The notes below the pieces were generated by a model that worked only from the letters and a program-made list of their open reading frames with translations, did no database searches and was not told where the DNA came from. A stretch of DNA of 49,183 nucleotides, taken from a bacterium c-19 (GTDB lineage Bacteria; Bacillota_I; Bacilli_A; Erysipelotrichales; Erysipelotrichaceae). The first letter of the stretch is position 1. Each line of letters starts with the position of its first letter. Positions 15,841 through 38,164 of the stretch are shown one piece after another. The DNA lies in NCBI GenBank assembly GCA_009917405.1, contig QZED01000010.1, forward strand, positions 1 through 49,183, in the 5' to 3' direction. The position numbers and the translations under genes are program-made.

Positions 15841-15856
15841 TTACTTCGTACATGTG

Positions 15857-18864: not shown

Positions 18865-18879
18865 AGTTTGTCACCTCCA

Positions 18880-20582: not shown

Positions 20583-20583
20583 A

Positions 20584-21043: not shown

Positions 21044-21048
21044 GATGT

Positions 21049-21104
21049 TCACCTCGCTTTCTGTAGGTCACTTTGTTTCGCCTTACACTACTCAATGGAG
21101 GTGA
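21049..21104 (-). promoter_or_regulatory. SD-sequestering pairing in leader C
   Basis: TCACCTC (transcript, from 21098-21104) pairs perfectly with GAGGTGA (21049-21055), the ribosome site of the 69-residue protein. Between them TGTAGG and CCTTACA can form an inner helix with one bulge. The anti-SD arm belongs to the conserved repeat. Pairing is seen; function is inferred. Confidence 0.55.
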
Positions 21105-21125
21105 GACGACCGTTTGGCCGAAAAA
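21088..21125 (-). repeat. Phage leader repeat, copy C
   Basis: The third copy of the conserved block. On the minus strand TTTTTCGGCCAAACGG is followed by CTCACCTCCATT and TAGTG. It lies just after the terminator of the sigma-like gene and before the small early protein. Confidence 0.75.
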
Positions 21126-21140
21126 TAGAAAAACTTTTTT

Positions 21141-21178
21141 GAAAAGAAAAATCGTCCCCTGAAGAATCAGAGGACGAC
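21141..21178 (-). terminator. Terminator after the sigma-like gene
   Basis: TCGTCC-CCTGA and TCAG-A-GGACGA (21152-21177) form a stem with an AGAA loop, followed on the minus strand by TTTTTCTTTTC. It ends the sigma-like unit before leader C. Confidence 0.75.
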
Positions 21179-21186
21179 CATTCATA

Positions 21187-21699
21187 TTATATGTAGTCCT
21201 TAAGCTCGGAACGGAGCTTCTTGAACAGCTTGTCCCTACGATATACAAAGGTATTGCGAGAGAGTCCCATTTCCTTGCCGCAGTCACGTTCAGATTTTCC
21301 CTGCATAATAAGCTGACAGATAAGACGACCTTCCGGGTCCAGCTCATTCAGCTTTGCATAGAGAGCGTGAAGAAGTTCTGTATCCTCTAATACTTCAGCG
21401 ATAGCTGCAGATTCATCTGACATATCATCAAGCCAGCTCTTTTCGTTTCCGTCACCGTCACTAATGGTGTTGTCGAGAGAAAGCTGATCGCCAGCTTTGG
21501 CATAAGGACAGGTTAAGCAATCCATGTCACATAAGTAGCGCTTGCTTGCAGGGCAGACGCAACGACCATGTTCTTGCTGACGTTTACGATAGGTGTTGAT
21601 GTCACGGTAGTAGTTCGTGTAGAACTCCTTGTTGACATCCACCCAGCTTTTGGATTCTTTGATGTAAATACGATACTCTTGATTTACTTTGTTTGTCAT
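21187..21699 (-). CDS. Phage sigma-70-like transcription factor
   Basis: 170 residues. The C-terminal half is a sigma region 4 type helix-turn-helix: LLHALYAKLNELDPEGRLICQLIMQGKSERDCGKEMGLSRNTFVYRRDKLFKKL. The N-terminal half has a cysteine cluster (CVCPASKRYLCDMDCLTCPYAKAG) that could bind zinc. It probably switches on phage genes. The start at 21699 has AAAGGAG upstream. It is the first full gene of the minus-strand phage transcript and lies behind a structured leader. Divergent from it runs the defence operon. Confidence 0.85.
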   Translation of the reverse strand: MTNKVNQEYRIYIKESKSWVDVNKEFYTNYYRDINTYRKRQQEHGRCVCPASKRYLCDMDCLTCPYAKAGDQLSLDNTISDGDGNEKSWLDDMSDESAAIAEVLEDTELLHALYAKLNELDPEGRLICQLIMQGKSERDCGKEMGLSRNTFVYRRDKLFKKLRSELKDYI

Positions 21700-21766
21700 T
21701 CGATTTTCTCCTTTCGGCATTTGAACCGAAGCGGAGATAACCGATATGGCTGCCAGTGTTTTTCAT
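21602..21766 (-). CDS. Candidate 54-residue leader protein overlapping the sigma-like gene
   Basis: An ATG at 21766 follows GAGGTGA at ten bases and opens 54 codons (MKNTGSHIGYLRFGSNAERR onward) that end inside the sigma-like gene. Its first part lies in the leader; the rest overlaps the sigma frame. Translation could be coupled. It may equally be only a spacer, so confidence is low. Its ribosome site sits in a nested hairpin. Confidence 0.35.
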   Translation of the reverse strand: MKNTGSHIGYLRFGSNAERRKSNDKQSKSRVSYLHQRIQKLGGCQQGVLHELLP

Positions 21767-21967: not shown

Positions 21968-21996
21968 TTGACAAACGGACACACAACTGATATAAT
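21968..21996 (+). promoter_or_regulatory. Consensus promoter of the defence operon
   Basis: TTGACA at 21968-21973 and TATAAT at 21991-21996 with 17 bases between: a perfect housekeeping promoter, the strongest in the window. It points at the ABC-three-component genes about 135 bases downstream. Confidence 0.85.
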
Positions 21997-22006: not shown

Positions 22007-22044
22007 GTTTTGACCTGAACAGTGTTGTTCCCTTTTGTCAAAAC
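22007..22044 (+). promoter_or_regulatory. Inverted repeat at the transcription start: candidate operator
   Basis: GTTTTGAC (22007-22014) and GTCAAAAC (22037-22044) are perfect complements; within lies GAACA-gtgt-TGTTC. It starts about ten bases after the -10 box, where a repressor would block transcription or an RNA hairpin would form. The XRE protein encoded in the same operon is a natural candidate ligand. Confidence 0.55.
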
Positions 22045-22130
22045 AAGTATATAAAATGACCTATGTCAGATTGGGTCTCGTTTGGCTCATCGTGGTTCAT
22101 CATGGTTCAAAACGGAAGGAGTTGTGCTTC

Positions 22131-23264
22131 GTGGAATTTAAAGATTTTTTCTCAATACTGAAAAAGCGAATATCTGATGGTGCAGATGTTCCTTATTTTT
22201 TCCGTGATTTGATTGCCATGATTACAGATGTGTCAGAGGAAGAATGGGGTACACAGAAGGACCCGTCGACTAAACTGACAAAAGAAAACACGCTTCGAAA
22301 TTATTCAAAGCGTGGATTAAGCAAAAAGTTTGCAGAGAGTATCGTTTACAGACTTGATAGAAATTTGTTTGTTGAATCAATTAATCAAAGGTCTGTAACG
22401 GTAAGAGAACTTTTGGCAGACGATTTCAAGGCGTATGACGCAACAGCAACGGAAGCAAATATAGGTGAGCTTTTAGCGGATTGCTTCATTGAGATAATTC
22501 GTTCTTCGGCTGGTTTTGTTCAGCAGAGTGTTCTTGAAAAACAAGCACAGCAGAAAAATGCATTAGAATTAAAAAATAAATATGGGGATTATCTTGTGAA
22601 CGAAGCGAATCACACCTGTCCATTTCCGGGATGCGGAAGAGAGCTTATGATTTCGAGAGCTGGCAAGATAGCTTCATCTTACGAAGTATCTCTAATAGAT
22701 AAGAAAAAAGCGCCAGAAGTAAATAATCTTCTTGCGCTATGTCCAAACTGTTACGCTACATATTCAATTGATTCCAGCACAAAGGTTACGAAGCAATTGA
22801 TTGGAGTAAAAAAGATTTTGGTTGGGCATGGACAAAACGTAGCACTATTGGAAAACTTGTCACTTGAAAAAGGAATAGTTGATGTCCTGAAAAAGGTTAA
22901 AAAACTGAATCAGAAGGATTTATCTAATGCTTCTCTTGACCCTAAAGAGATAACACAAAAAATAAGTCCTGAAGATGATTTTGCACTATACATGACAATC
23001 AATTCATATGTAAATGCGTATTATGTTCGCATTAGGGAGATTATGACAAATGCAGACAAGCGTGGTGAGATTGATTATGATGAAGTGCAATACCAAATAC
23101 ATGCTATGTATAAGAAATTAAAGAAAGCAAAGAAGTCGAAGGTCGATATTTTTAATGAAATCGTACAGAAAATCCATAAGGTTAGTCTGATGGATGAGAT
23201 TTTGTGCCAGATTGTAGTATCGTACTTTGTTCAGAGCTGTGAGGTATTCGATGCAATTGCCTAA
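22131..23264 (+). CDS. ABC-three-component system effector with HNH-type zinc site
   Basis: A 377-residue protein whose gene is followed directly by an ABC-3C middle component and a DUF2326 ATPase, which identifies the locus as an ABC-three-component (ABC-3C) conflict system. A central zinc-binding segment (CPFPGCGREL about 163, and LCPNCYATYS about 202) is HNH-like, but the expected catalytic histidines are absent (YEVSLIDKKK, and CYATY instead of CHxxxH). The C-terminal about 170 residues probably form the ABC-3C interaction domain. I place the start at GTG 22131, preceded by GGAAGGAG; an upstream TTG at 22035 has no ribosome site. Confidence 0.75.
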   Translation: MEFKDFFSILKKRISDGADVPYFFRDLIAMITDVSEEEWGTQKDPSTKLTKENTLRNYSKRGLSKKFAESIVYRLDRNLFVESINQRSVTVRELLADDFKAYDATATEANIGELLADCFIEIIRSSAGFVQQSVLEKQAQQKNALELKNKYGDYLVNEANHTCPFPGCGRELMISRAGKIASSYEVSLIDKKKAPEVNNLLALCPNCYATYSIDSSTKVTKQLIGVKKILVGHGQNVALLENLSLEKGIVDVLKKVKKLNQKDLSNASLDPKEITQKISPEDDFALYMTINSYVNAYYVRIREIMTNADKRGEIDYDEVQYQIHAMYKKLKKAKKSKVDIFNEIVQKIHKVSLMDEILCQIVVSYFVQSCEVFDAIA

Positions 23265-23475
23265 TAAATTATATACATATAAAAAGAGTACGTTAGCACA
23301 GATTCCGATTGTGCTTGACGCAATTAAAAATGGACCAGTACCGGTTGTTGATTTGTACAAGCAAATCAGACCGTTACTGGATGATGCAACAGATTTTATG
23401 TCTGTTATGGATTGTCTGTATGCTTTAGGAGCTACAGACATAAATGATGAGGGAGAGGTATTCATATGCTTATAG
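23251..23475 (+). CDS. ABC-3C middle component
   Basis: A 74-residue protein beginning LPNKLYTYKKSTLAQIPIVL and ending DFMSVMDCLYALGATDINDEGEVFICL. This small winged-helix-like architecture is that of the middle component, which links the effector to the ATPase. It overlaps the effector gene by 14 bases and the ATPase gene by ten, so the three are translated together. The GAGG ribosome site lies inside the effector gene. Confidence 0.8.
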   Translation: MQLPNKLYTYKKSTLAQIPIVLDAIKNGPVPVVDLYKQIRPLLDDATDFMSVMDCLYALGATDINDEGEVFICL

Positions 23476-25103
23476 AAATGAAGTCTCCAGCGTTTAAGGA
23501 AAAGGGTAAGGAACGACCTCCTATCATATTTAGGGAAGGCTTAAATGTAATTCTGGGTAAGAACGATGGAGCTATGTCAATAGGTAAGTCTTCAGCGTTA
23601 CTGGCAATTGATTTTGTATTCGGTGGAGATACCTATGTTAAAAGTGATGGCGTTAAACAGGAAGGTAATCACTCAATATTCTTTGCATTTGAGTTTAATG
23701 GTATCAGATATTATTTTGAGAGAAATACCGGTGATAGTGATACCTTCTATATTTGTGATAATCATTATCGTAGAACTGATAAGACTTATACGAAAACAGA
23801 ATATACGAACTGGTTAAAGGTTAACTACAACATGGATTTTGCCGGAATATCATTTAGGAAAGCTCTTAGTAGTTTCTTCAGAATCTATGGAAAGAAGAAC
23901 CATGATGAACTTAATCCGCTACAAGGAATTCCGGGTCAAAATATGGAAAAATCTATTAATGTTATTTTGACGCTTTTTGATAAGTATAAGGATATCGAAG
24001 TGTTCAAACGGAGTGTTGATGAACATAAAAATAGACTCGCTGCCTACAATACTGCAAGAAAATATGAGTTTATCTCCAATTTAGTCGGTGGAAAAAAGAA
24101 GTATGAAGAAAATCTTCAGGAAATTCGCGCGTTAGAACAGGAATTGGGAACTTTAATGGAGGTTGCAGAAAAAGGTCATACTGATGAAGAAATTGAGAAA
24201 AATAAACGCAAAGCGGAATTAACAACAATAAAGCTTAATTTAGAGACACTGTTACAATCGAAAGAAATGCGACTCAGACTTGTTAATATGAGCTTGGAAT
24301 ATGGGTTGTATCCGACAGAGGCAGATATAGCTGCATTACAACAATACTTTCCGACAGTGAATCTTCGAAAGCTATATGAAGTGGAGCAGTACCATCGGAA
24401 ATTAGCAAAAATATTAGACGGACAGTTTAAAAGTGAGCAGAATGCTATAAAGGGTGAAATTGATATCATAAAAGAACAATTGGAAATAGTAAACACCCAA
24501 ATAAAAGAACTTGGATTTGTCGGTAATATTTCTAAAGAATTTTTGGATAAACATTCTGCTATCACAGGAGAAATAAATGCATTGAGAACACAGAATCAGG
24601 CGTTCTTAAAGCAAAAAGAATTGCAGGAAGCAAAGGCCAATGCGGATGAAGTTTTAAGACGTAGTATTGAAGATATCTTGAGAGAAATTGAAGTAACTCT
24701 GAACGATAAAATGAAAGAGTTTAATGATTCCTTGTTTTCGACTCAGCGTAAGCCACCGTATATCCACTTCAATCGTTATGATAGTTATAAATTTGAAACA
24801 CCTATGGATACGGGAACAGGATCAAATTATAAAGGAATGATAGTTTATGATCTGGCGATGCTTTTTTCTACAGCACTTCCGGCGTTGGCACATGATTCGT
24901 TGTTGTTTAAAAATCTCGAAAAGAATGTCGAGGATGGAATTATAAAAATCTATAACAGCACAAAGAAACAAGTGTTTATTGCTTATGACAAGCAGGGTGA
25001 TTGCAGACCGGAGACTAGGGATATTCTAGAGAGGAATTGTGTTCTTCGTCTTTCAAATGATAATTGTGAACTGTATGGAAGGTCATGGAATATAGAGGAG
25101 TAA
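23466..25103 (+). CDS. DUF2326 SMC/Rad50-like ATPase of the ABC-3C system
   Basis: 545 residues. The N-terminal ATPase head has the Walker A region NVILGKNDGAMSIGKSSALL at about 26-45. Two long coiled-coil arms follow (about 185-280 and 310-420), with a C-terminal DUF2326 half (GMIVYDLAMLFSTALPALAHDSLLF near 457). Such ATPases are thought to sense foreign DNA or stalled replication and signal to the effector through the middle component. No signal peptide, cytoplasmic. It is the third gene of the ABC-3C operon; the XRE regulator gene starts seven bases after its stop. Confidence 0.88.
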   Translation: MLIEMKSPAFKEKGKERPPIIFREGLNVILGKNDGAMSIGKSSALLAIDFVFGGDTYVKSDGVKQEGNHSIFFAFEFNGIRYYFERNTGDSDTFYICDNHYRRTDKTYTKTEYTNWLKVNYNMDFAGISFRKALSSFFRIYGKKNHDELNPLQGIPGQNMEKSINVILTLFDKYKDIEVFKRSVDEHKNRLAAYNTARKYEFISNLVGGKKKYEENLQEIRALEQELGTLMEVAEKGHTDEEIEKNKRKAELTTIKLNLETLLQSKEMRLRLVNMSLEYGLYPTEADIAALQQYFPTVNLRKLYEVEQYHRKLAKILDGQFKSEQNAIKGEIDIIKEQLEIVNTQIKELGFVGNISKEFLDKHSAITGEINALRTQNQAFLKQKELQEAKANADEVLRRSIEDILREIEVTLNDKMKEFNDSLFSTQRKPPYIHFNRYDSYKFETPMDTGTGSNYKGMIVYDLAMLFSTALPALAHDSLLFKNLEKNVEDGIIKIYNSTKKQVFIAYDKQGDCRPETRDILERNCVLRLSNDNCELYGRSWNIEE

Positions 25104-25110
25104 AACCAGT

Positions 25111-25323
25111 ATGAAGATGAGTTATAACAAATTATGGAAGTTACTGATTGATAAAAATATGAAAAAATCAGATTTGAGAAAGAATGCAGGAATCAGTTCA
25201 TCTTCACTTGCAAAACTAGGTAAAGATGAAAATGTTACTACAGAAGTATTAGCAAAAATCTGTAACGAACTCAAATGTGATGTCGGGGATATTATGGAAT
25301 TCATACCGGATGGAAATGAATAA
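25111..25323 (+). CDS. XRE-family repressor of the defence operon
   Basis: A 70-residue single-domain helix-turn-helix protein (SYNKLWKLLIDKNMKKSDLRKNAGISSSSLAKLGKDENVTTEVLAKICNELKCDVGDIMEF), a Cro/C1 type close to HTH_26. GAGGAG lies ten bases upstream. Placed between the ABC-3C genes and the MORC/Z1 genes, it could control both, with the inverted repeat at 22007-22044 as a possible operator. Confidence 0.88.
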   Translation: MKMSYNKLWKLLIDKNMKKSDLRKNAGISSSSLAKLGKDENVTTEVLAKICNELKCDVGDIMEFIPDGNE

Positions 25324-25354
25324 ACGCTCGTTTAGCTAAGGAAGGAATCTGCAA

Positions 25355-26821
25355 ATGAAAACAAAAAGCTTGCCACCCTATGCGCCTACTTTAATTGAGT
25401 CAACAAGGGCTATTGGATATTCTCTTGAGGCTGCAGTGGCAGATATTATTGATAACAGTATCGCAGCAAATGCAAAGAATGTTGATATCTATTTTTTTCC
25501 GGTAGACGGTGCATATATTGCAATTCTCGATAATGGTAAAGGAATGGCACAGGAAGAAATCGATATTGCTATGCAATACGGAAGTAAAAATCCGACAGAA
25601 GAAAGGGATAAAAAAGATTTAGGACGTTTTGGTTTGGGATTAAAAACAGCGTCTTTATCTCAGTGTAGATGTCTGACTGTTATTTCTAAGCAAGGGGATA
25701 ATTTGGAGGGACGTCAATGGGATATAGATCATGTTACAGAAGTAGGAGATTGGTCTTTAAACGTTCTTGATGAAGAAGATATTCAGCAAATACCTCAATT
25801 TGACGAATTGATAAAAAACGAATCAGGAACATTAGTAGTCTGGCAAAAACTAGATCGTCTCAAGTCTGGAGAAATAAATTTTGAACTATCATTAGGACGT
25901 AAAATTGATAGAGTCAGAGATCATCTTTCTCTTGTTTACCACCGATATTTAGCAGGGAAATCAGGGATCACAAAACTTAAACTGTCAATTAATGGAGAAA
26001 AAATAAAAGGAATTGACCCATTTTTGACGGAGAAAAGTGTTCAAGCCATGGATGATGAAACATTAGTTATTCAGGGCAATAAGATATTAGTGAGACCGTA
26101 TATTCTTCCTCACATATCTAAGCTGACATCAGATGAAATTAAAATGCTTGGTGGGAAGGATGGACTTCGAAAACAACAAGGGTTTTATGTATACAGGAAC
26201 AAAAGATTGTTGGTTTGGGGTACTTGGTTCAGAATGATGAGGCAAGGAGACTTATCAAAACTTGCCAGAATCCGTGTTGATATCCCAAACACATTAGATG
26301 ATCTGTGGACTCTAGACATAAAGAAATCGTCCGCATTGCCTCCAGCAGAAGTTAGAAAGAATTTGGAGATAATTATTAATCAAATTGCTGAACGGAGCAA
26401 AAGAACGTGGACTTTCAGAGGTAAAAAGGAAATAAGTGATACAGAAACTCACGTTTGGAACCGCATGAAAAATAAGCAAGGCGGATTTTATTATGAAGTT
26501 AATCGAGAGCATCCACTTGTGCAACAAATGATTAAAGCACATCCCGATATAGAGGTGTCATTAAATGCATTGTTGCAACAGATTGAGATGGGATTGCCTC
26601 TTAATCAATTATATGTGGATTTGAATAATGATGAGCAAATTACCAATGATAATGAGCAGTCAGATGTAGAAATAGTAAAATCACTACAGGAAATGATTAT
26701 GATGTGTGCTGACAAGCAAGAAAAATGTAATCTGCTTGATGCCATTGCTTGTATTGATCCATATTCGTCACATCTTGATATAGTAGAGAAACTTAAGGAG
26801 GAGATTTTGAAAAATGATTAA
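25355..26821 (+). CDS. MORC-type GHKL ATPase
   Basis: 488 residues with the GHKL ATP-binding fold: N-box EAAVADIIDNSIAAN at 25-39, DNGKGM at 59-64, and GRFGLGLKTAS at 90-100. A MutL/MORC-like transducer region and a helical tail follow. Bacterial MORC ATPases occur in restriction-like operons with Z1 helicases, PD-(D/E)XK nucleases, AIPR proteins and methyltransferases, exactly the neighbours here. ATP-driven dimer clamping on DNA is the expected activity. It overlaps the Z1 gene by eight bases. Confidence 0.9.
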   Translation: MKTKSLPPYAPTLIESTRAIGYSLEAAVADIIDNSIAANAKNVDIYFFPVDGAYIAILDNGKGMAQEEIDIAMQYGSKNPTEERDKKDLGRFGLGLKTASLSQCRCLTVISKQGDNLEGRQWDIDHVTEVGDWSLNVLDEEDIQQIPQFDELIKNESGTLVVWQKLDRLKSGEINFELSLGRKIDRVRDHLSLVYHRYLAGKSGITKLKLSINGEKIKGIDPFLTEKSVQAMDDETLVIQGNKILVRPYILPHISKLTSDEIKMLGGKDGLRKQQGFYVYRNKRLLVWGTWFRMMRQGDLSKLARIRVDIPNTLDDLWTLDIKKSSALPPAEVRKNLEIIINQIAERSKRTWTFRGKKEISDTETHVWNRMKNKQGGFYYEVNREHPLVQQMIKAHPDIEVSLNALLQQIEMGLPLNQLYVDLNNDEQITNDNEQSDVEIVKSLQEMIMMCADKQEKCNLLDAIACIDPYSSHLDIVEKLKEEILKND

Positions 26822-29561
26822 TCCAAATGTCGAACAATTAGAAAGTTTAATCTCCGCAGTTGTTAACAATCTTTATAAGGAAGTTCCACCTACAGAAGAT
26901 GAATTTTTGGAGAAAGCAACTTTATTAAGAAATACAAATGCACCTATTATGCCGGTTTCAGATGATGAATTCGCAGAGATAATTTCTAGACTCAAGCAAT
27001 CATTAGTCATCCAGATGGATATTGGGGTATATATTAACGATCGTAATAACGGGCATCAGTCATGGGTACCTTCAAAGAGAGCCGACTTCGACTTCTTCTT
27101 TTGGAACAGATATAAGAAGTATCTGGAAGAAATTAAACATTGGAATCCGAGAGTTACAACAAATCTTGGAAAAGTTTCTGATGAAATATTAGATTTATGT
27201 GGTGATCCGTCAGAAGATCATTTTGCAATAAAAGGTCTGGTGCTAGGAGATGTGCAGTCAGGCAAAACTGCTAACTACACAGCCATTTGTAATAAAGCAG
27301 CGGACACGGGTTATCGAATTATTATTGTCTTAGCTGGTATGCAGGAGAATTTGCGTAAGCAAACACAAGAAAGATTGGATGCTGAATGTACCGGAAGAAA
27401 GAGCGAATATTATCTGGATCCTAAAGCCGAACAGGGTATAAAGAATCAGCCGGTCGGTGTAGGAAGATACGGAACAGATAAAAAAATCGTTGCATTTACT
27501 TCCGTGACCAAAGATTTTGATAGCGGTATTCTTAGAAACAATAATTTGGGTATCGAAAACGTTAATTGCCCTGTTATTTTAGTGGTGAAGAAGAATAAAA
27601 GAATTTTAAATAATTTGATCAAGTGGCTATCAGATAACAACACGCAAAATGCCGCTGGACAGATTGATCTTCCTCTCATGCTAATTGATGATGAGGCTGA
27701 TAACGCATCAGTTAATACAAAAGACGAAGATTCTCAGCCTGCAGCAATTAATGACTGTATTAGACGTTTGTTGAATCTATTCAGTAAAACTACGTATTTA
27801 GGCATTACTGCGACGCCTTTTGCAAATATATTTATCGATCCGGAAAAAGACGATGATCTCTTTCCGGCAGATTTTATCTATGCATTATCTGCTCCAACTA
27901 ATTATATTGGGGCTGATAGAATATTTGGAGAAAATTCTGATAGTGATCACATGCTTCAGGAGATTGATATAGAAGAGTTAGAAGCGTGCTTTCCACCAAA
28001 ACATAAAAAAGACTTTGTGGTAGAAGATTTACCTGAGGATTTATATGAAGCTACATATTATTTCTTGTTATTAAATGCAATTCGCGACTATAGAGGTGAC
28101 CTTACAGAACATAGATCTATGATGGTACATATAAGCCTTTATACCAATGTTCAAAATCAGATACAAGAAATGCTGAATGTGTGGTTAGATCAGGTGAAAT
28201 CGGATGTTCGAAACTACGCTAAATTACCACTTTCTCAAAGTGAAAAAATAAAAAATATAAAAGCGATGCATGTTGTTTGGGATAAATATCATTTGAGTGG
28301 GATTGTTGGAATAGAATGGGAAGACTTACTAAAAAATTATTTGCACAAGGCAATTTCTCCTATTGAAGTTCGTGCAGTAAATATGAAAACTGGTGCAGCA
28401 AGTTTAGATTATTTTAATCATAAGAATGATGGTTTGCGTGTAATTGCTGTAGGTGGAAATAGTATGTCGAGAGGTTTGACCTTAGAGGGCCTTGGCGTAA
28501 CATATTTTCATCGTAATACAAAGATGTACGATACTTTGTTACAGATGGGGCGTTGGTTCGGATATAGACCAAACTATGGGGATGTTGCAAAGGTATGGAT
28601 GACACCAGAAGCAATCGATTGGTACGGACAAATTACTAGAGCAACAGCTGAACTTAAGGAAGAAATTTCGAAAATGAGAAACGCGAATCAAACTCCTAGA
28701 GACTTTGGCCTGAAAGTTCGACAAGATCCTGGCGCATTAATCGTGACCGCGCGAAACAAAATGCGTACAGCAACTGATTTGACGTGTCCTGTTACAGTCT
28801 CTGGTAATTTACTTGAGACACCTAGATTAAAAGCATCAAAAAACATTTTGGCTTCAAATGAGACAGCATTCAAGAATTTTGTAAATTCATTGAGTAGTAT
28901 TGGAGATAGATTTTTTGATGAAGAGCGTACGAGAGGACATTATTACTGGAAAAATGTTCCTGGGGATAATATTGCTCAATTATTGCTAGATTTCGAGACA
29001 AATCCATGGCATTTGAGTTTCAATGGTAGGGCACTTGCGGAATTTATAGAGAGTCATCATTGGAGCAATGGATGGGATGTAGTATTGATAAAATCTGGAA
29101 CCGGTATTCCATACGATGAGCCGTTGCACTGTGGTGAAGAAATATTAGAGATCGAAGGGACAGAAAAAAGAAAAATTTTAGCTGATAAGAAAATGATCAG
29201 TGTGAGTGGTACTAAGTTACGTGTTGGTGCTGGTGGATGCACACGAATTGGATTAACGAAAAAAGAAATTCAAGATGCGGAAGAAGCATATAGAAACATA
29301 CCAGGAAATGAGAATAAGAAAAATATTCCGGACAAAGCGTATTTGATAGCCAACAGAGATCCTATTTTAATGCTACATATAATACAAGCCGATTATTCAA
29401 AGTCTGAGAATAAAGATTTACCTGAATTTTTATTCGCGTTAGGAGTGGGATTTCCTAAAACTAGTGGCTTTACTGAAACTGCAAATTATAAGGTTAACTT
29501 AATTGAGTTGCGAAATTGGGTGGACGTTTATGACAATTATGATGACGATGAGGATATGTAA
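26814..29561 (+). CDS. Z1-domain superfamily II helicase/ATPase
   Basis: 915 residues. The helicase motifs are: Walker A LGDVQSGKTANYT at about 142-154, LMLIDDEADNASVN near 287 (motif II), GITATPFANIF near 329 (motif III), VGGNSMSRGLTLEGL near 545, and LLQMGRWFGYRP near 573 (motif VI). Between about 660 and 915 lies the Z1 tail. Z1 helicases are the motor of MORC-containing restriction systems and probably translocate on non-self DNA. It overlaps its neighbours at both ends by one to eight bases, so the subunits are likely made in fixed ratio. Confidence 0.92.
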   Translation: MINPNVEQLESLISAVVNNLYKEVPPTEDEFLEKATLLRNTNAPIMPVSDDEFAEIISRLKQSLVIQMDIGVYINDRNNGHQSWVPSKRADFDFFFWNRYKKYLEEIKHWNPRVTTNLGKVSDEILDLCGDPSEDHFAIKGLVLGDVQSGKTANYTAICNKAADTGYRIIIVLAGMQENLRKQTQERLDAECTGRKSEYYLDPKAEQGIKNQPVGVGRYGTDKKIVAFTSVTKDFDSGILRNNNLGIENVNCPVILVVKKNKRILNNLIKWLSDNNTQNAAGQIDLPLMLIDDEADNASVNTKDEDSQPAAINDCIRRLLNLFSKTTYLGITATPFANIFIDPEKDDDLFPADFIYALSAPTNYIGADRIFGENSDSDHMLQEIDIEELEACFPPKHKKDFVVEDLPEDLYEATYYFLLLNAIRDYRGDLTEHRSMMVHISLYTNVQNQIQEMLNVWLDQVKSDVRNYAKLPLSQSEKIKNIKAMHVVWDKYHLSGIVGIEWEDLLKNYLHKAISPIEVRAVNMKTGAASLDYFNHKNDGLRVIAVGGNSMSRGLTLEGLGVTYFHRNTKMYDTLLQMGRWFGYRPNYGDVAKVWMTPEAIDWYGQITRATAELKEEISKMRNANQTPRDFGLKVRQDPGALIVTARNKMRTATDLTCPVTVSGNLLETPRLKASKNILASNETAFKNFVNSLSSIGDRFFDEERTRGHYYWKNVPGDNIAQLLLDFETNPWHLSFNGRALAEFIESHHWSNGWDVVLIKSGTGIPYDEPLHCGEEILEIEGTEKRKILADKKMISVSGTKLRVGAGGCTRIGLTKKEIQDAEEAYRNIPGNENKKNIPDKAYLIANRDPILMLHIIQADYSKSENKDLPEFLFALGVGFPKTSGFTETANYKVNLIELRNWVDVYDNYDDDEDM

Positions 29562-30493
29562 TGAGTGGTAAAGAAAATGAATTAAGAGAAAAGTGGAATA
29601 CTATTAATTACTATTCTGGAGGAGCATTGAAATTATCTGTAAAGCATCCGCTTGAGTGGTATGTTCGATATGCAACACCGGAGCATAAGTCTGTCGTAAT
29701 AGTGAGCCAAAAGGCAATTAAAAAAATAGATTCGTCAAAATGTATCGATGCTTCATGTAATCAGAGGAAGGATGGAAAATATGCAATTTCCTTTACATTG
29801 ATGGATCGAAAACAGGAAGATGTTTTCATAACAATGGCAGGAGATATTATCGAGTATTCCAATGTAGAAACTGATGATATTGCATTGCTTAAAGTATTGC
29901 GCAGATATAACGCATGGTTAAAACTATTAGACCATAAAAGCAATGCGGTATTAGGTAGTAATACACTGAAAGGTCTCATTGGAGAGTTGTTGTTCCTGAA
30001 GGAAAAAATAGAAAATGGAATGCTACCGTCTGTTGCTTTAGCAGGCTGGGTTGGTTCAGAAGGAGCAGATCAAGATTTTGTATATGCAGATTGTTGGCAT
30101 GAGATTAAATCTACAGGTGCTTCATCTTCAGAAATATCAATTTCTTCTGTTGAGCAATTAGATAGAAATGATGAAGGAGAATTGGTTATTTATCGTATCG
30201 ATAAATGTGCACCGGATCAACCAAAATCATTCACGTTATATGGATTGGTTCATGAGTTAATAGAGTTGATTTCACGACACGGCGAAAATCCAGATGAGCT
30301 AATATTAAAACTTGGCGCCGCAGGTTATATTGACATGAAAGAATATGATAAACAGCATTTTAGTGTGTCCTCAAAGCAAGTATACACTGTAAATGAATCA
30401 TTTCCGAGAATACGGAGAGTTGATGTTCCGACAGAAATAACGAATGCTGTTTATCAGATAGATATCCCTAGTATAAAAAGCTGGGAAAAGTAA
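29561..30493 (+). CDS. PD-(D/E)XK nuclease of the Z1/MORC system (DUF4420-like)
   Basis: 310 residues. The core shows TLKGLIGELLFLK at about 138-150 (helix with catalytic glutamate) and GADQDFVYADCWHEIKST at about 168-185, with D172, E181 and K183 as the metal-binding D-(x)n-E-x-K set. The start codon overlaps the Z1 stop. It is the likely DNA-cutting subunit of the system. Length and motif spacing agree with the family. Confidence 0.88.
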   Translation: MSGKENELREKWNTINYYSGGALKLSVKHPLEWYVRYATPEHKSVVIVSQKAIKKIDSSKCIDASCNQRKDGKYAISFTLMDRKQEDVFITMAGDIIEYSNVETDDIALLKVLRRYNAWLKLLDHKSNAVLGSNTLKGLIGELLFLKEKIENGMLPSVALAGWVGSEGADQDFVYADCWHEIKSTGASSSEISISSVEQLDRNDEGELVIYRIDKCAPDQPKSFTLYGLVHELIELISRHGENPDELILKLGAAGYIDMKEYDKQHFSVSSKQVYTVNESFPRIRRVDVPTEITNAVYQIDIPSIKSWEK

Positions 30494-30514
30494 CGAAAAT
30501 GGGAGGATGTTAGC

Positions 30515-32596
30515 ATGGATTCTACCGAATTTAAAAAAGATTTTATAGAGAGTATAAAAACTGCTGCAGCAGTTACAGGAGAAGGGTCATGTGCATCCTT
30601 TGTAGATAATATGGCGCAGTATCTAATTGATGCTGAGGCGTTATCAGATTTCACACCGTCTTTTTATAAAGGCAAAAGTGGGCGTAGTAATTATAGAGTA
30701 GACGGTTATGTATACGATGAATTCGATGATACGATGAATCTTATTATTGCGGATTTTGATGGTAATGATTTGGAACGCCGACTTACCGGAACAGCTGCGA
30801 ATAAGGATTTTGGCTTGCTTATGAAATTTCTTGATGTAGCATTGACAACTAATTTATATCAAGAAATAGAGATGAGTACACCATGTGCAGACTTAGTAGA
30901 TCTTTTAAGGTATAACAAAAAGGCGATTCGTAAATATCGTTTTCTTGTATTTACCGATGCAGATATGAGTGCTGCTATAAAGACCGTAGAAATTGATGAC
31001 TATAATTCTATTCCGGTAGAAGGTCAGATATGGGATATTGATCGTTTGTTCAGAGTCTGTTGTTCAGAGCAAGGCCGTCAGATTATTGAGATTGACTTTA
31101 AGGAATATTGTGGTGAAGGTATTCCGTGTATAGAAGCTAGCTCAGCGTCTACAGAACAGTACAGTAGCTATCTGGGAGTTATTCCTGGAACTGTTTTGGC
31201 TGATATATATGACAAGTATGGAAGTAAACTTTTGGAGGGAAATGTGAGATCATTCTTATCTACTAAAGTGGCGGTCAATAAGAAAATAAGAGGGACTATC
31301 TTGAACAATCCGCAGATGTTTTTTGCGTTTAATAACGGTATATCAGCAACTGCAATGGATGTTGAGATAGAGGATACAAACCATGGAAGATTTATCACCT
31401 TTGTTAGAGATTTTCAGATTATTAATGGTGGACAGACAACGGCCTCTATTTCAAATGCAAGATATAAAGACAAAGCAGATTTGTCATCTATTTTTGTGCA
31501 AATGAAATTGACTTCAATTGATGAATCAACACCAGAAGAGTCAGACGAGTTGATCAGAAATATTTCTAGATCATCAAACAGTCAGAATAAGGTTAGTGAT
31601 GCAGACTTTTTTGCATCTCATCCATTTCATCGTCGTATGGAACAAATATCAAGACACTTATTTGCACCGGCATCTGAAGGCGCACAGTATGAAACGAAAT
31701 GGTTTTATGAAAGAGCAAGAGGACAATATCTGCAAGAACAAATGCGCTTGACACCTGCAAAGAAAAAACAATTTGAGTTGCAACATCCTAAAAATAAGGT
31801 GATTAAGAAAACAGATCTTGCAAAGGTTCAGAATACATGGAGAGGATTCCCTCAGGTTGTAAGTAAGGGTGCGCAGACCAATTTTAATTCGTTTGCAGAG
31901 TACATTGATGAGCAATGGAATGCAAATGAGGAGCAGTTTAATGAGAGATATTTCCAAACTACTGCAGCCTTGATTCTTTTGTTCCAATATTTAGAGAAGA
32001 CTATACCAAAACAGCCTTGGTACGAGGGTGGATACCGTGCAAATATCATATATTACACATTGGCACAATTTAGAAGATTGTTGCATAGTCAATATCAAGG
32101 ACGGGAACTTGATTTGATGTTGATATGGAATAGGCAGAGCGTGCCCGAACAAGTGGGTACAGTTTTAATCGCATTGGCAGAGCTGGTTCTTCTTCGAATA
32201 ACTGATCCGTCAAGAAAAGTTGCAAACGTTACTCAGTGGTGTAAGAGAAATGATTGTTGGGAAGATGTGAAGAAGATACATATTGATATTCCTGAAGATA
32301 TTGAGAGTTGTTTAATCACTATCGATGAACAGAAGGCGGCACAGAAATCCGCTAAGAAAGAGCAGAAGGTTGTAAATGAAATTCAGGCTCAGACAACGGT
32401 GGTTAATTATCCTGTAGAAATGTGGATGCGACTATCAGAGTTTGTTGTTAGAAATCATATGGTTACACCTACAGATGTATCTGCATTAGCGATTGCATGT
32501 AAAATGCCTGCTAAAATACCAAACATTTATCAATGCAAACGCTTACTTGCATTGCTACGCAAAGCCTCCGAAGAAGGCTTTAATACTGAAGTGTAA
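30515..32596 (+). CDS. AIPR-family abortive-infection phage-resistance protein
   Basis: 693 residues. It has the AIPR core: FFAFNNGISATAMDVE near 269-284, DFQIINGGQTTASISNA near 297-313, and SRSSNSQNKVSDADFFASHPFHRRM near 349-373. Proteins of this family confer phage resistance, and the gene is regularly found between Z1/PD-(D/E)XK and C5-methyltransferase genes. The biochemical role is not settled: nuclease or DNA-binding specificity subunit. GGGAGG precedes the start; 21 bases from the upstream gene. Confidence 0.9.
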   Translation: MDSTEFKKDFIESIKTAAAVTGEGSCASFVDNMAQYLIDAEALSDFTPSFYKGKSGRSNYRVDGYVYDEFDDTMNLIIADFDGNDLERRLTGTAANKDFGLLMKFLDVALTTNLYQEIEMSTPCADLVDLLRYNKKAIRKYRFLVFTDADMSAAIKTVEIDDYNSIPVEGQIWDIDRLFRVCCSEQGRQIIEIDFKEYCGEGIPCIEASSASTEQYSSYLGVIPGTVLADIYDKYGSKLLEGNVRSFLSTKVAVNKKIRGTILNNPQMFFAFNNGISATAMDVEIEDTNHGRFITFVRDFQIINGGQTTASISNARYKDKADLSSIFVQMKLTSIDESTPEESDELIRNISRSSNSQNKVSDADFFASHPFHRRMEQISRHLFAPASEGAQYETKWFYERARGQYLQEQMRLTPAKKKQFELQHPKNKVIKKTDLAKVQNTWRGFPQVVSKGAQTNFNSFAEYIDEQWNANEEQFNERYFQTTAALILLFQYLEKTIPKQPWYEGGYRANIIYYTLAQFRRLLHSQYQGRELDLMLIWNRQSVPEQVGTVLIALAELVLLRITDPSRKVANVTQWCKRNDCWEDVKKIHIDIPEDIESCLITIDEQKAAQKSAKKEQKVVNEIQAQTTVVNYPVEMWMRLSEFVVRNHMVTPTDVSALAIACKMPAKIPNIYQCKRLLALLRKASEEGFNTEV

Positions 32597-32608
32597 GATG
32601 GAGGAACT

Positions 32609-34219
32609 ATGTTTAATACAATAGATTTGTTTGCGGGTGCCGGTGGATTGAGCCTGGGATTTATGCAAACAAAGAAATTTGATATAAAAGTTGCATATGA
32701 ATTTAATCCTGCCATGCAGGAAACCTATAAGAAAAATCATCCTGGAGTAGCTGTATTTGGCGATGTTAGGGATGCTAACTATGCAGAAATAAAAGAAAAA
32801 TATGGCGACATCGATGTTGTGATTGGAGGACCACCTTGTCAGGGATTTTCTAATGCAAATAGGCAAAAGAATCATGCAATTAGCCAGAATAATTCCCTGG
32901 TGAAACAGTATATTAGAGCAATCTTGGAATTAAGACCAAAGGCATTTGTAATGGAAAATGTGAGTATGCTTAGATCAGATGTTCACAGATTCTACTTATG
33001 TGAAGATGATCGAGAATTAGTGGATAGCAATGTGATTAAAACTGCTAATACCGAGTTGGCTTTACTTGATGCGGAGTTTATGTTTGATGAAGCAATTAAT
33101 ATTGTGCAGTCTGAGCAAAAACTAGGTCGATATAAATGGGATGTTTTCGATTATCTCGAATTGAATGTTATCTATAAAGCATCTAAGAATACAACCAAAT
33201 TTAAAGATGTATTAGAAAAACATAGATCACGTTTGATAAAAATATCAGAGAAGCACACAGAAGGTGATGAGGATGATTTTATCATTGCCACTGATAGGGT
33301 TGCGTTTAATGCAATGCTTGATTTTTACGCTGGGAAAATAGAAGAATCTCAGATCAAGGAATTAATTGAGCCTGCAATTATGTATCAAAGGATGATGAGT
33401 AAGGCACAGGAGATATTTGAAAACGATATTGTGGTTGATAGCTATACCGACAATAAAGGACTAATAGCCAATATACGTTCATATGCCGTTTTTGATTATT
33501 TAAAGGCAAAGCTACAGGGGGGCGATGATGACGATGGATATGCTATTTCGGCAGATGTTCTATCCGCAACTCAATTTGGAGCTCCACAAAAAAGAATGCG
33601 TTTTGTAGTAATGGGTATCCGTAAAGATATTACAAATGAGGTTAAACTTCCAGAAGGAAAATATAAAGACGGTCCATATAGGACAGTTGAGGACGCGATT
33701 AAAGATTTGGAGGATGTTGAGCCTGTCTATAATGTATCCGATGATAAGAGCGGCATAAAGCTGCAAGCTAAAACTGACTTAAGTGAGTTGGCGCAGACGC
33801 TTCGTGACTCGGAGATATTGCATAATCATATTATAACTAAAACGACACCAACAGCTATGGAACGTTTTAAAGCATTAGATCAGGGACAAAATTTTCATTC
33901 CTTATCTGATGCAATGAAAACAAACACGTATACAGATGTTACAAGAACGCAGAATACGATCTATCTTCGCTTAAAATATGATGAGCCATCCGGTACTGTA
34001 GTAAATGTGCGTAAATCAATGTGGGTGCATCCAACAAAAGACAGAGCAGTAAGTATAAGAGAAGCAGCGCGTTTGCAGACATTTCCGGATAGCTTCGTTT
34101 TTTGTGGGACGAAGGATAAGCAATATCAGCAGGTAGGAAATGCGGTGCCGCCTATAATGGCAAAAGCTATAGCAAAGAAATTGGCTAACCAGCTTAATAA
34201 AGCATTATCACAGAAATAA
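32609..34219 (+). CDS. DNA (cytosine-5) methyltransferase with large insertion
   Basis: 536 residues. Motif I is TIDLFAGAGGLSLGF (4-18), motif IV is GGPPCQGFSN with the catalytic cysteine at about 77, motif VI is VMENVSML near 114-121, motif VIII is QFGAPQKRMRF near 322, and motif X is QVGNAVPPIMAKAIA near 507. Between VI and VIII lies an unusual stretch of about 190 residues, mostly helical and acidic. The enzyme marks host DNA so that the Z1/MORC nuclease complex spares it. It starts 12 bases after AIPR with GGAGG. Confidence 0.93.
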   Translation: MFNTIDLFAGAGGLSLGFMQTKKFDIKVAYEFNPAMQETYKKNHPGVAVFGDVRDANYAEIKEKYGDIDVVIGGPPCQGFSNANRQKNHAISQNNSLVKQYIRAILELRPKAFVMENVSMLRSDVHRFYLCEDDRELVDSNVIKTANTELALLDAEFMFDEAINIVQSEQKLGRYKWDVFDYLELNVIYKASKNTTKFKDVLEKHRSRLIKISEKHTEGDEDDFIIATDRVAFNAMLDFYAGKIEESQIKELIEPAIMYQRMMSKAQEIFENDIVVDSYTDNKGLIANIRSYAVFDYLKAKLQGGDDDDGYAISADVLSATQFGAPQKRMRFVVMGIRKDITNEVKLPEGKYKDGPYRTVEDAIKDLEDVEPVYNVSDDKSGIKLQAKTDLSELAQTLRDSEILHNHIITKTTPTAMERFKALDQGQNFHSLSDAMKTNTYTDVTRTQNTIYLRLKYDEPSGTVVNVRKSMWVHPTKDRAVSIREAARLQTFPDSFVFCGTKDKQYQQVGNAVPPIMAKAIAKKLANQLNKALSQK

Positions 34220-34229
34220 GGAGATACTT

Positions 34230-36188
34230 ATGAGCCAAAGAGCATACTATTTTAATTCTATAAATAACTTCATATTAGAGGATGATGAGCTTGTTCTCGG
34301 CCAATTATTGATTAATGATGAGTTTGAAACTACCGATCTCCAAAAGATGGCTTGGAGATCGGAGATTCAAATTTTAAAGGAACAATTAGTCGAGTTTTCT
34401 CAAGGTGATATTATTTTCGAATATACCATCCCAAGAATGGGGCACAGGGTAGATGTGATATGCATAATAGAAGGAATTATTTTTCTCCTAGAGTTTAAGG
34501 TAGGAGATAAAGAGTACAAGAAATCTACCACCGATCAGGTGATGGATTATGCGTTGGATTTGAAATACTTTCATGATAAAAGTAGAACTAGGTATCTTGT
34601 TCCTATCAATGTTTCAACGAAGGCGGCAGAGAAACAGAATGAATATTACTGTATGGCAGATAATATTCATAACACTCTTTTTTGTAATGAAAATAATATT
34701 GGCAGTACTATTCGAGAAACCATTTCGAGAATTAATGCCACGTCGTTATCTGCACTGGAGTGGATAAATTCAAGATACGCTCCGACACCGACCATCATTG
34801 AAGCTGCGCAGGCATTGTATAGAAAACATGGTGTCGAAGATATTTCTAGGAATGATGCTGGTGCAAAGAATTTAACAATAACGACAGAGGCAATTTCCAA
34901 TATAATTGATCAGTGTAAGAAAAATAGCAAAAAAGCTATATGCTTTGTTACAGGAGTACCTGGTGCTGGAAAAACTCTAGCAGGCTTGAATATAGCAAAC
35001 GAACGTCATCATTTTAATGAAGATGAACATGCTGTTTTTCTTTCAGGAAATGGTCCACTAGTTGATGTTTTGCAAAATGCGCTCGCAATAGATCGTGCGG
35101 AGAGAGAAGGCATAACTAAGAAAAATGCTCTTCGAGAAACGAAAGCCTTTATTCAAATTATTCATAAATTTAGAGATGATGCTTTAACAACAGATATGGC
35201 ACCAGTAGAGAAAGTAGCTATTTTTGATGAGGCTCAAAGAGCATGGAACAAAGAGTCGCTCACTGATTTTATGAGGCGAAAAAAAGGGATTCCCGATTTT
35301 AATCAGTCAGAACCTGAATTTTTGATTAGCATTATGGACCGACATGAAGATTGGGCCGTTATAGTTTGTCTTGTGGGTGGTGGACAAGAAATATACAACG
35401 GAGAAGCAGGAATTCAGGATTGGTTTGAAACTTTAGCAAATAATTATCCCGATTGGAAGATTTATCTGTCGGATAAAATTACAGATACAGAATATGTAGG
35501 GAAATCAGACATCCCAACATTATTGAATGGACGAGAGTACCATTGCATTTCAGATTTGCATTTAGGAGTTTCGCTACGCTCATTCAGAAGTGAAAAATTA
35601 GCTCTTTTCGTGAAATTGTTGTTAGATGAAAGGGCAGATGATGCCAAAAGTGTTTATTATGAGCTTAAACAAACATATCCGATTTTTTTGACAAGAAATT
35701 TTGAAATTGCAAAAAAATGGGTAAAAGATAAGGCTCGTGGGACAGAAAGGTATGGGCTTTTAGCAAGCTCAGAAGGGAAAAGACTGCGAGCTGAAGGAAT
35801 ATGGGTTCCATCAGATATAAATCATGTAGGGTGGTTTTTGAATGGAAAGGATAATGTTGATTCATCGTATTATTTAGAAGTGGCAGCGTCTGAATTTAAA
35901 GTGCAAGGTTTAGAGGTCGATTATGCAGTATTAGCCTGGGATGCAGATTTCAGGTATACGAGAGATGGCTTTGATTATTTTAAGTTCAGGGGTACGAAAT
36001 GGAACCATGTTAATCAGGAACAAAGACAGAGATATCTAAAAAATGCTTATAGAGTTTTATTAACAAGAGCAAGACAGGGATTGATTATATATGTTCCTGA
36101 AGGTTCAGATGAAGATCCGTCAAGGAACAGGGAATATTATGATAGAATTTTCCAATACTTGAAGAGTACTGGAATGGAAGTAGTCTGA
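34230..36188 (+). CDS. Nuclease-fused DUF2075 helicase-like NTPase
   Basis: 652 residues. The N-terminal about 110 residues contain a possible PD-(D/E)XK site: RVDVICI with D75 and FLLEFK with E88 and K90. Then a DUF2075 NTPase: FVTGVPGAGKTLAGLN near 236-251 (Walker A), VAIFDEAQRAW near 328 (Walker B) and VLLTRARQGLIIY near 609. Such proteins are found in defence islands and may act as nuclease-helicases on DNA or RNA. It follows the methyltransferase by ten bases. Whether it belongs to the MORC/Z1 system or is separate cargo is not known. Confidence 0.85.
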   Translation: MSQRAYYFNSINNFILEDDELVLGQLLINDEFETTDLQKMAWRSEIQILKEQLVEFSQGDIIFEYTIPRMGHRVDVICIIEGIIFLLEFKVGDKEYKKSTTDQVMDYALDLKYFHDKSRTRYLVPINVSTKAAEKQNEYYCMADNIHNTLFCNENNIGSTIRETISRINATSLSALEWINSRYAPTPTIIEAAQALYRKHGVEDISRNDAGAKNLTITTEAISNIIDQCKKNSKKAICFVTGVPGAGKTLAGLNIANERHHFNEDEHAVFLSGNGPLVDVLQNALAIDRAEREGITKKNALRETKAFIQIIHKFRDDALTTDMAPVEKVAIFDEAQRAWNKESLTDFMRRKKGIPDFNQSEPEFLISIMDRHEDWAVIVCLVGGGQEIYNGEAGIQDWFETLANNYPDWKIYLSDKITDTEYVGKSDIPTLLNGREYHCISDLHLGVSLRSFRSEKLALFVKLLLDERADDAKSVYYELKQTYPIFLTRNFEIAKKWVKDKARGTERYGLLASSEGKRLRAEGIWVPSDINHVGWFLNGKDNVDSSYYLEVAASEFKVQGLEVDYAVLAWDADFRYTRDGFDYFKFRGTKWNHVNQEQRQRYLKNAYRVLLTRARQGLIIYVPEGSDEDPSRNREYYDRIFQYLKSTGMEVV

Positions 36189-36199
36189 GGGGTGATGTT

Positions 36200-36958
36200 T
36201 TGAAGGACACAAAGTATGAAGATTTAAATAAAACGTTAGCAGCAGTTGGAAAAGCTGTATTTGTAAATTTTTATTATGATTTCAAAGATTCGTCCATTTC
36301 AAAAGATGAATTGGCCCAAAAGATCCTATTGAAAAATCCGGGGTCGAAGTCAGAAAGTCAAAACTTTCGTATTCCAAGAGCTCGACATATATTCGAGTTG
36401 GGACAGGAGAAGGAAGCATTACGTATTATCATAGAAAGCAAACGCGTAGATAAAAAAGCAGTAGAAAAAGCTAAGCATATTTTGGCTAAAGAAATTATTA
36501 GAGAAGATTTTCAAATAGAGAGTACAGAGGAACGACAATTTATCGAACATTTCAATCAAGAAATTCAATATGACGCTACTCTAAGGGAGGCTCCTTTGAT
36601 TGCGGAGAGAAAACAATACATATATCCTCGAAAACAAAATGAGTCGAAGAATGCTTTGAGGCGAGCACAGTATTTGTGCGAAGTAGATAATTCACATTTT
36701 GTTTTCAAACGAAGAAATAGTTCTGATAATTATACAGAGCCACATCATTTGATCCCATTATCGGCGTATCGTGATTTTCCAGGAATTGATTTGGACAGAG
36801 AGCAAAATATTGTATCGCTTTGTAGTAATTGTCATAATATGTTGCATTATGGTGCCTCGTACAAAGAAGTGTTACATGAGTTGTATGTTCAAAGAAGGGA
36901 ATTATTAAAACAGATAGGCATAGTAGTATCTTTTGAACAATTGGTGAGTTATTATTGA
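36200..36958 (+). CDS. HNH endonuclease, last gene of the defence operon
   Basis: 252 residues, with a TTG start after GAGGGG. The C-terminal HNH motif is complete: EPHHLIPLS with the catalytic histidine pair, DREQNIVSLCSNCHNMLHYG with zinc ligands. The N-terminal about 150 residues are charged and helical, perhaps a recognition part. It begins 12 bases after the DUF2075 stop, so the two form a pair. A nuclease paired with a nuclease-helicase is a plausible two-gene defence module. Confidence 0.85.
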   Translation: MKDTKYEDLNKTLAAVGKAVFVNFYYDFKDSSISKDELAQKILLKNPGSKSESQNFRIPRARHIFELGQEKEALRIIIESKRVDKKAVEKAKHILAKEIIREDFQIESTEERQFIEHFNQEIQYDATLREAPLIAERKQYIYPRKQNESKNALRRAQYLCEVDNSHFVFKRRNSSDNYTEPHHLIPLSAYRDFPGIDLDREQNIVSLCSNCHNMLHYGASYKEVLHELYVQRRELLKQIGIVVSFEQLVSYY

Positions 36959-37030: not shown

Positions 37031-37117
37031 TATTAAAGATTATGATTCAATCGATATAACTGTTATAGTAAAGACGTTTTAATATGGATGAGAAATAACC
37101 AGAAGGAGGCCTCTTAT

Positions 37118-38164
37118 TTGAAAAAGAAAAAAGATGAAATATCCATTCGTTCCAGCGCAGCGGAATATCTGACTTATGTTGCATCTATCGGTGATCAGCA
37201 AGACAGTATTGAAATGCGCTATGAGGATGAGAATATATGGCTGACACAGAGGATGATGGCCACACTGTATGATGTGGATGTTCGTACAATCAATGAGCAT
37301 ATTAAGAAGATTTATTCCGACTCAGAACTTGAGGAAGAAGCAACTATCCGGAAATTCCGGATAGTTCAAACCGAAGGTTCACGCCAGGTCACTCGTGATA
37401 CGAAACATTATAATCTTCAAATGATTATTGCTGTTGGATTCAAGGTAAACAATGAGCGAGCGGTGCAATTTCGTAAGTGGGCAAATGGCATCGTAAAGGA
37501 CTACACCATCAAAGGCTGGGTTATTGATGACGAGCGTCTGAAAAATGGTGGTTCAGTTCTCACAACAGAATATTTTGACCGCCTGCTTGAGCAGATTCGT
37601 GAGATTCGTTTGTCTGAGCGTAGATTCTATCAAAAGATAACGGACATTTATGCAACAGCTCTTGATTATGACCGCACAGCAAAAACGACAAAGCAGTTCT
37701 TTGCAAAAGTGCAGAACAAGATGCATTATGCAGTTCACGGTCATACGGCAGCAGAGTTGATTTACGAGCGAGCAGATGCTGATAAGCCACATATGGGGCT
37801 GACCACGTGGGCAGCAGCGCCGGAAGGTAAGATAGTAAAAAGTGATGTGAGCGTTGCGAAGAATTATTTGAGTGAGCAGGAAATGCGTTCACTGGAGCGT
37901 ATTGTATCTGCTTATCTGGATTTAGCAGAGGACCGTGCAGAACGTCATATTCCAATGACGATGGAGGATTGGTCAAAGCGACTGGATCTATTCCTGATGG
38001 CTGATGACAGAGAGGTTCTTCAGGATGCAGGAAAAATTACGGCAGAGATCGCCAAGGCTAAAGCCGAGACTGAATTTGAAAAGTACCGTGTTATTCAGGA
38101 CAGACTGTTTATGTCTGACTTTGATAAATACATGCTGGAATTGGAAGAGAATGCGAAGAAGTAG
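37118..38164 (+). CDS. rhuM: RhuM family protein
   Basis: 348 residues. The N-terminal half is the RhuM domain (VRTINEHIKKIYSDSELEEEATIRKFRIVQTEG onward, with DLQMIIAVGFKVN-type HYNLQMIIAVGFKVNNERAVQFRKWAN). It continues with LTTEYFDRLLEQIREIRLSERRFYQKITDIYATA. RhuM occurs often on mobile elements and was first linked to virulence in Salmonella; the biochemical role is unknown. I choose TTG at 37118, eight bases after AGGAGG; an ATG at 37088 lies upstream without a site. It is the last gene before the right junction. Confidence 0.85.
   Translation: MKKKKDEISIRSSAAEYLTYVASIGDQQDSIEMRYEDENIWLTQRMMATLYDVDVRTINEHIKKIYSDSELEEEATIRKFRIVQTEGSRQVTRDTKHYNLQMIIAVGFKVNNERAVQFRKWANGIVKDYTIKGWVIDDERLKNGGSVLTTEYFDRLLEQIREIRLSERRFYQKITDIYATALDYDRTAKTTKQFFAKVQNKMHYAVHGHTAAELIYERADADKPHMGLTTWAAAPEGKIVKSDVSVAKNYLSEQEMRSLERIVSAYLDLAEDRAERHIPMTMEDWSKRLDLFLMADDREVLQDAGKITAEIAKAKAETEFEKYRVIQDRLFMSDFDKYMLELEENAKK
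37342..37366 (+). repeat. Perfect 25-bp palindrome inside rhuM
   Basis: AACTATCCGGAA, a central A, and the exact reverse complement of the first arm. It encodes part of TIRKFRIVQ, a conserved RhuM stretch. In RNA it would have too small a loop for complete pairing, so a DNA-level site for a dimeric protein (perhaps RhuM itself) is the more natural reading. Confidence 0.6.

Follow-up and report, generated by a model that had tools for sequence, protein, structure and literature searches.

The MZA system reportedly consists of the five genes mzaABCDE, as set out by Gao et al. in 2020. A putative type II system composed of Z1, DUF4420, C5-methyltransferase, AIPR and MORC proteins together with a regulator was defined by Miller et al. 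(2022), who mention neither a DUF2075 helicase nor an HNH gene in their section on this system and who describe MzaA as a sigma factor (PMC9523054). CglI is a C5-methyltransferase restriction-modification (RM) system with a DEAD-Z1 ATPase, in which DNA cutting requires ATP hydrolysis; it uses a PLD nuclease and possesses no MORC, AIPR or PDC-S41 protein (PMC4267653). PDC-S41 itself is catalogued by PADLOC as a single-gene phage-defence candidate, a label given through guilt by association, and a search of the literature returned nothing on PDC-S41 nor on DUF2075 proteins in connection with both defence and HNH proteins.

In the window, by which we mean the whole stretch of 49,183 nucleotides of bacterium c-19 DNA that was analysed, a plus-strand operon was found that contains all six components of the putative type II system as listed in the section of Miller et al. 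devoted to it (PMC9523054). A 70-residue Cro/C1-type HTH regulator (25111-25323; PF13443, E 3.5e-22) fills the gap before a MORC/MutL-type GHKL ATPase (25355-26821; PF13589), which is followed by a Z1-domain ATPase (26814-29561; PF10593), a DUF4420 PD-(D/E)XK protein (29561-30493; PF14390), an AIPR protein (30515-32596; PF10592) and a C5-cytosine DNA methyltransferase of 536 residues (32609-34219; PF00145, E 1.5e-64). Behind the methyltransferase lie a gene encoding PDC-S41 (34230-36188) and an HNH endonuclease gene (36200-36958), and from MORC to HNH all genes are co-oriented with intergenic gaps of -8 to 21 bases.

The MORC/MutL, Z1, PD-(D/E)XK and AIPR proteins are shared with MZA in the same order and resemble MzaB to MzaE, but all four scored below the curated NCBIfam equivalog cut-offs (NF041932, 350 bits against 850; NF041933, 506 against 1500; NF041934, 96 against 420; NF041935, 323 against 1050). 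The C5-methyltransferase, PDC-S41 and HNH genes are additional in comparison to MZA, and no match to the MzaA sigma factor was found among the scanned genes of the window operon. Because of the low scores and the missing MzaA, filing the core as MZA was rejected. With CglI and NgoAVII the operon has in common a C5-methyltransferase and a Z1-containing ATPase (PMC4267653).

Several features surround the operon. On its 5' side and in the same orientation lies an ABC-three-component set (22035-25103, plus strand) encoding a CTD11 protein, an 82-residue middle gene product and a DUF2326 ATPase, beside which a consensus-perfect promoter-like site occurs at 21968-21996. ORF translations of the minus strand at 7361-21720 showed site-specific-recombinase-like and phage-like genes, and this region, which adjoins the defence genes, probably derives from an integrated element or a decayed prophage. 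On the 3' side, 129 bases after the HNH gene, a RhuM-family gene (37088-38164) corresponding to the PADLOC candidate PDC-S05 has a G+C content of 0.431 against 0.343.

Our preferred reading, to which we assign a probability of roughly 0.6, is that PDC-S41 and HNH serve as accessory effectors at the 3' end of a single restriction operon based on methylation, which runs from the HTH regulator through MORC, Z1, DUF4420, AIPR and the C5-methyltransferase to these two genes. What is directly seen is the order of the genes, the preservation of their catalytic motifs, and that both PDC-S41 and the terminal small-nuclease gene have been swapped repeatedly between copies of the core that have otherwise diverged; an antiviral role of the two genes is probable.

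The PDC-S41 nuclease-helicase

The first of the two genes begins with ATG 10 bases after the end of the methyltransferase and encodes 652 residues with no internal stop, in agreement with the coordinates and length given by the first-pass annotation. The protein matched the PADLOC profile PDC-S41 (PDLC05014) over its full length (residues 3-651 against profile positions 2-652 of 657; 948 bits) and has the same nuclease-helicase architecture, the window copy differing from the single-gene label in that it sits within a methylation operon. The first-pass annotation could place the pair in no named system; the first gene does belong to this catalogued candidate family, while the pair itself indeed fits no Gabija or Hachiman model, as neither protein matched GajA/B or HamA/B at E 0.001. 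Placement in Gabija, Hachiman, AbiO or Nhi was rejected on matches that were either none or weak, the weak one being to AbiO and for PDC-S41 only.

Residues 235-623 (34932-36098) form a Schlafen-group-3 SF1 helicase domain (PF09848, formerly DUF2075; E 1.8e-80, 271 bits against a gathering cut-off of 24), which bears out the DUF2075 NTPase named initially. An alignment of 11 homologs with 38-97% identity showed conservation of the motifs GVPGAGKT, DEAQR, GGGQE, SLRSFR, QGLE and YRVLLTRAR, with both Walker A (GVPGAGKT) and Walker B (DEAQ) intact.

The nuclease core was located at about residues 60-169 (34407-34736) from the homolog alignment, an AlphaFold2 model and matches in the PDB. Residues E64, R69, R73, D75, E88, K90, Q103 and Y107 are invariant in the 11 homologs and include the PD-(D/E)XK site that had been proposed at D75 and E88-F-K90. 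Structure prediction of the N-terminus, which had been suggested as a check of that proposal, gave a model of residues 1-230 with a pLDDT of 80.6. Foldseek comparison of this model with the PDB ranked McrC first (E 5.5e-3) and archaeal NucS second, and VIA-align of about residues 3-169 ranked Can2 best (Z 8.3), followed by Cdn1, McrC, EndoMS, Hjc and FokI. These matches belong mostly to the PD-(D/E)XK superfamily and their single scores are moderate; the combination of invariant residues and fold matches nevertheless makes the assignment of this domain as a PD-(D/E)XK nuclease well supported. Q103-x3-Y107 is a motif of the type found in RecB/Cas4-like nucleases, yet Dna2 came no higher than 19th in Foldseek, and the closest structures were McrC, NucS and Can2. 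Sequence searches found no solved relative of the N-terminus, and comparison of the whole PDC-S41 profile with solved structures gave only a 35-residue P-loop match.

The HNH endonuclease

The second gene has a TTG start and encodes 252 residues, again with no internal stop, and GAGG/GGAG-like Shine-Dalgarno stretches lie 5' of both its start and that of PDC-S41. The start chosen originally stands, with a gap to PDC-S41 of 11 bases and not 12. The TTG frame is kept in Streptococcus cristatus and in Clostridium sp. KNHs205, and dN/dS values ranged from 0.07 to 0.14 at dS of 0.62 to 1.2, which together indicate a real gene under purifying selection. Between the window and S. cristatus, dS of the HNH gene (36200-36955) is 0.62 in comparison to 0.02-0.28 for the other operon genes, and this suggests that HNH recombined separately from the remaining operon.

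The protein matched PF01844 (E 1.7e-6), and its residues 131-235 (36590-36904) matched the HNH catalytic domain of EcoKMcrA (PDB 6ghc; phmmer E 6.4e-10). An alignment of relatives showed C160, H166, E180, H182, H183, N203, C208, C211 and H212 to be invariant, including catalytic and metal-binding residues. EcoKMcrA is a 5-methylcytosine-specific type IV enzyme, and such a cutter next to a C5-methyltransferase would attack its own host. Only residues 131-235 of the window protein align, with no detectable match to the N-terminal recognition region of EcoKMcrA. The sole match of the N-terminal 90 residues was the phage-linked family phrog_24787, and the N-termini of the HNH relatives are widely divergent in the alignment. 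A model built from three close homologs had a pLDDT of 47.7, too low for use of its fold.

Exchange of PDC-S41 among restriction cores

PDC-S41 lies directly 3' of the C5-methyltransferase, or one small gene further, in the window and in loci L004, L008 and L009, the last three of which combine core, C5-methyltransferase and PDC-S41 without HNH. Between the window and L004, the MORC, Z1 and AIPR proteins are 31-35% identical and PDC-S41 is 69% identical; the corresponding values for the window and L009 are 32-37% and 69%, whereas those for L008 and L009 are 72-84% and 41%. This discordance between core genes and PDC-S41 indicates that PDC-S41 has moved separately from the core. The cores closest to that of the window, L082 (a Subdoligranulum plasmid) and L083 (Acetoanaerobium), with 56-64% identity in MORC, Z1 and AIPR, carry neither PDC-S41 nor HNH, and in L082 a Vsr gene follows the methyltransferase. 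All cores located independently through Z1 (L082-L088) were without PDC-S41, showing that the core does not require it.

Phylogenetic analysis of PDC-S41 placed the window, L002 (S. cristatus), L003 (Clostridium sp. KNHs205), L004, L009 and L025 in one clade with 100/100 support, all members of which adjoin Z1 and C5-methyltransferase genes. L008 fell outside this clade and represents a separate arrival, although its branch is long. In L025 the PDC-S41 relative adjoins, on the opposite strand, a CglI/NgoAVII-like set composed of an NgoFVII-type PLD nuclease, a Z1 protein, Vsr and a C5-methyltransferase. The small-nuclease slot is occupied differently in each case, by HNH after PDC-S41 in the window, by Vsr after PDC-S41 in L004 and by Vsr before PDC-S41 in L009. 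These comparisons indicate repeated insertion of PDC-S41 behind the C5-methyltransferase of MORC-Z1-DUF4420-AIPR operons, where the order of arrival, with the core first and PDC-S41 second, is an assumption of our reading. A related Thalassospira plasmid locus (L085:7049-18913) encodes an annotated sigma factor, a MORC-like ATPase, Z1, PD-(D/E)XK and MzaE proteins, an AspBHI-like modification-dependent enzyme and a C5-methyltransferase, and the position of the AspBHI-like gene appears to be another variable effector slot.

Alternatively, PDC-S41 may be an autonomous single-gene defence, with both it and HNH carried along in a defence island and having no functional tie to the methylation core. 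We regard this as unlikely, even though most PDC-S41 copies are solo and outside MZA-like operons (in Bacillota, Novosphingobium, Persicobacter and others) and the operon travels with an unrelated ABC-three-component system on its 5' side, because at least three separate arrivals at a single spot, 3' of the C5-methyltransferase of this type of core and about -1 to 28 bases from the gene in front, exceed what island clustering predicts and one strongly supported PDC-S41 clade is limited to Z1/C5-methyltransferase loci. Under the accessory-effector role proposed above, PDC-S41 would be able to function elsewhere too, as most of its copies lie outside such operons.

Five loci from three or more tree branches have a Nudix gene immediately 3' of PDC-S41, at a gap of -14 to 36 bases (L058:8411-8830, L061:8019-8411, L076:7995-8429, L081:11073-12086 and L025:2660-3061), and the L061 copy matches the PADLOC candidate PDC-S07. 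Other neighbours are a gene resembling MazG (L064), one of GmrSD type (L080) and a weak PD-(D/E)XK match (L078), and this assortment suggests that PDC-S41 partners with varied nucleic-acid-processing enzymes. The L064 cluster (7598-13000) is made up of a PDC-S14-like gene, the start of which may be GIY-YIG-like, the MazG-like gene, PDC-S41 and an HNH_4 gene, and the L081 cluster (6776-13228) of a second Schlafen-group-3 helicase, PDC-S41, Nudix and HNH_4. Scans of viral contigs added only one PDC-S41 locus (L041, which has the same match identities as L008), and their HNH matches spanned no more than about 21 residues; phage records gave one unverified contig (MT836127), and no near relative was found in the E. 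coli genomes searched.

Association of PDC-S41 with HNH genes

The first-pass annotation had proposed the two genes as a possible two-gene defence module. The homologous pair occurred in no more than three cassettes, near-identical copies of the whole operon in the window, in S. cristatus (L002) and in Clostridium sp. KNHs205 (L003), the S. cristatus cassette having 95.4% nucleotide identity to the window over 13.9 kb. The shared block covers window positions 23067-36954 (S. cristatus L093), with its right edge at most 4 bases from the HNH stop and its left edge inside the CTD11 gene, and is evidently a recent transfer between distant hosts.

Among 31 fetched PDC-S41 loci counted by hand, an HNH gene of the window type was present downstream in two (L002 and L003); in the other 29, an HNH_4 gene was next or next but one in two (L064 and L081) and 27 had no HNH gene. 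No PDC-S41 relative occurred in the fetched DNA of 19 inspected HNH loci, and in the Lachnospiraceae the genomes matched by HNH did not overlap those matched by PDC-S41, although these two samples may differ in the genomes that they contain. A Z1 gene was absent genome-wide from five PDC-S41 genomes (L006, L007, L010, L011 and L012). The associations were tallied manually over about 30 PDC-S41 and 20 HNH loci, the whole-genome samples comprised a few hundred genomes per group, and the contig scan relied on exact peptide matches, which favours close relatives. PDC-S41 and HNH do not make up a conserved two-gene module. Both are common in the absence of the partner, and the homologous pair was never seen apart from the whole operon, an outcome that the first-pass annotation had named as refuting its proposal; the HNH_4 pairs of L064 and L081 are the caveat. 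Naming the pair as a system was rejected because it is confined to near-identical cassettes.

A self-contained system of two genes, inserted behind the methyltransferase, in which PDC-S41 would sense and unwind phage DNA and HNH would cut it, is consequently rather improbable. The occurrence of PDC-S41 without MORC/Z1 in many genomes would fit such a system, as would L064 and L081, which have no MORC/Z1 genes and carry HNH_4 3' of PDC-S41, in one directly (gap 5) and in the other after the Nudix gene. The L064 HNH_4, however, has no significant similarity to the window HNH, and besides the distribution described above, L004, L008 and L009 retain PDC-S41 in the operon without HNH. It may be that PDC-S41 has convergently come to be paired with HNH enzymes of one kind or another more than once.

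The suggestion that the C5-methyltransferase has HNH as its cognate type II restriction enzyme, with PDC-S41 between them by chance, is the least credible. HNH relatives do lie directly 3' of C5-methyltransferases (L068, L069), after a D12 N6-methyltransferase (L072) and after a type III RM operon (L066), but methyltransferases with 62-64% identity (L008, L009, L082) have no adjoining HNH gene and HNH N-termini vary widely. Vsr accompanies further HNH relatives in L102, where a C5-methyltransferase is also present, and in L103, and on enterobacterial plasmids others lie behind an AAA-ATPase and UvrD pair. The methyltransferase or RM neighbours in L066, L068, L069, L072 and L102 also speak for the preferred accessory-effector reading.

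Proposed mechanism and significance

If PDC-S41 and HNH are accessory effectors of the methylation-based operon, the methyltransferase would mark host DNA and the MORC/Z1/DUF4420/AIPR core would recognise unmarked phage DNA and cut or hold it. Z1 would be the ATP-driven part of the core, as in CglI (PMC4267653), and the action of the core on unmodified DNA may be aided by MORC-dependent DNA looping, as proposed by Iyer et al. 2008 (PMC2292703). PDC-S41 could then load on exposed DNA, which its SF1 helicase would unwind and its PD-(D/E)XK domain degrade, with HNH providing a further, independently acting cut that would make phage escape harder.

The finding argues against two genes that form a system on their own, and it gives the candidate PDC-S41 a concrete architecture, a PD-(D/E)XK nuclease joined to a Schlafen-type SF1 helicase, together with a recurrent partner system. 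It also shows that the effectors at the end of MORC/Z1-type restriction operons are subject to exchange, and the role of the helicase becomes directly testable by addition or removal of a single gene. More tentatively, PDC-S41 might be a portable DNA-processing effector that different restriction cores (MORC-Z1-AIPR and CglI-like) have acquired repeatedly, each time along with a small, replaceable partner such as HNH, Vsr or Nudix, whose task would be either to destroy DNA or to repair or clear away what cytosine methylation leaves behind. If true, this would constitute a plug-in layer of bacterial restriction that is so far undescribed.
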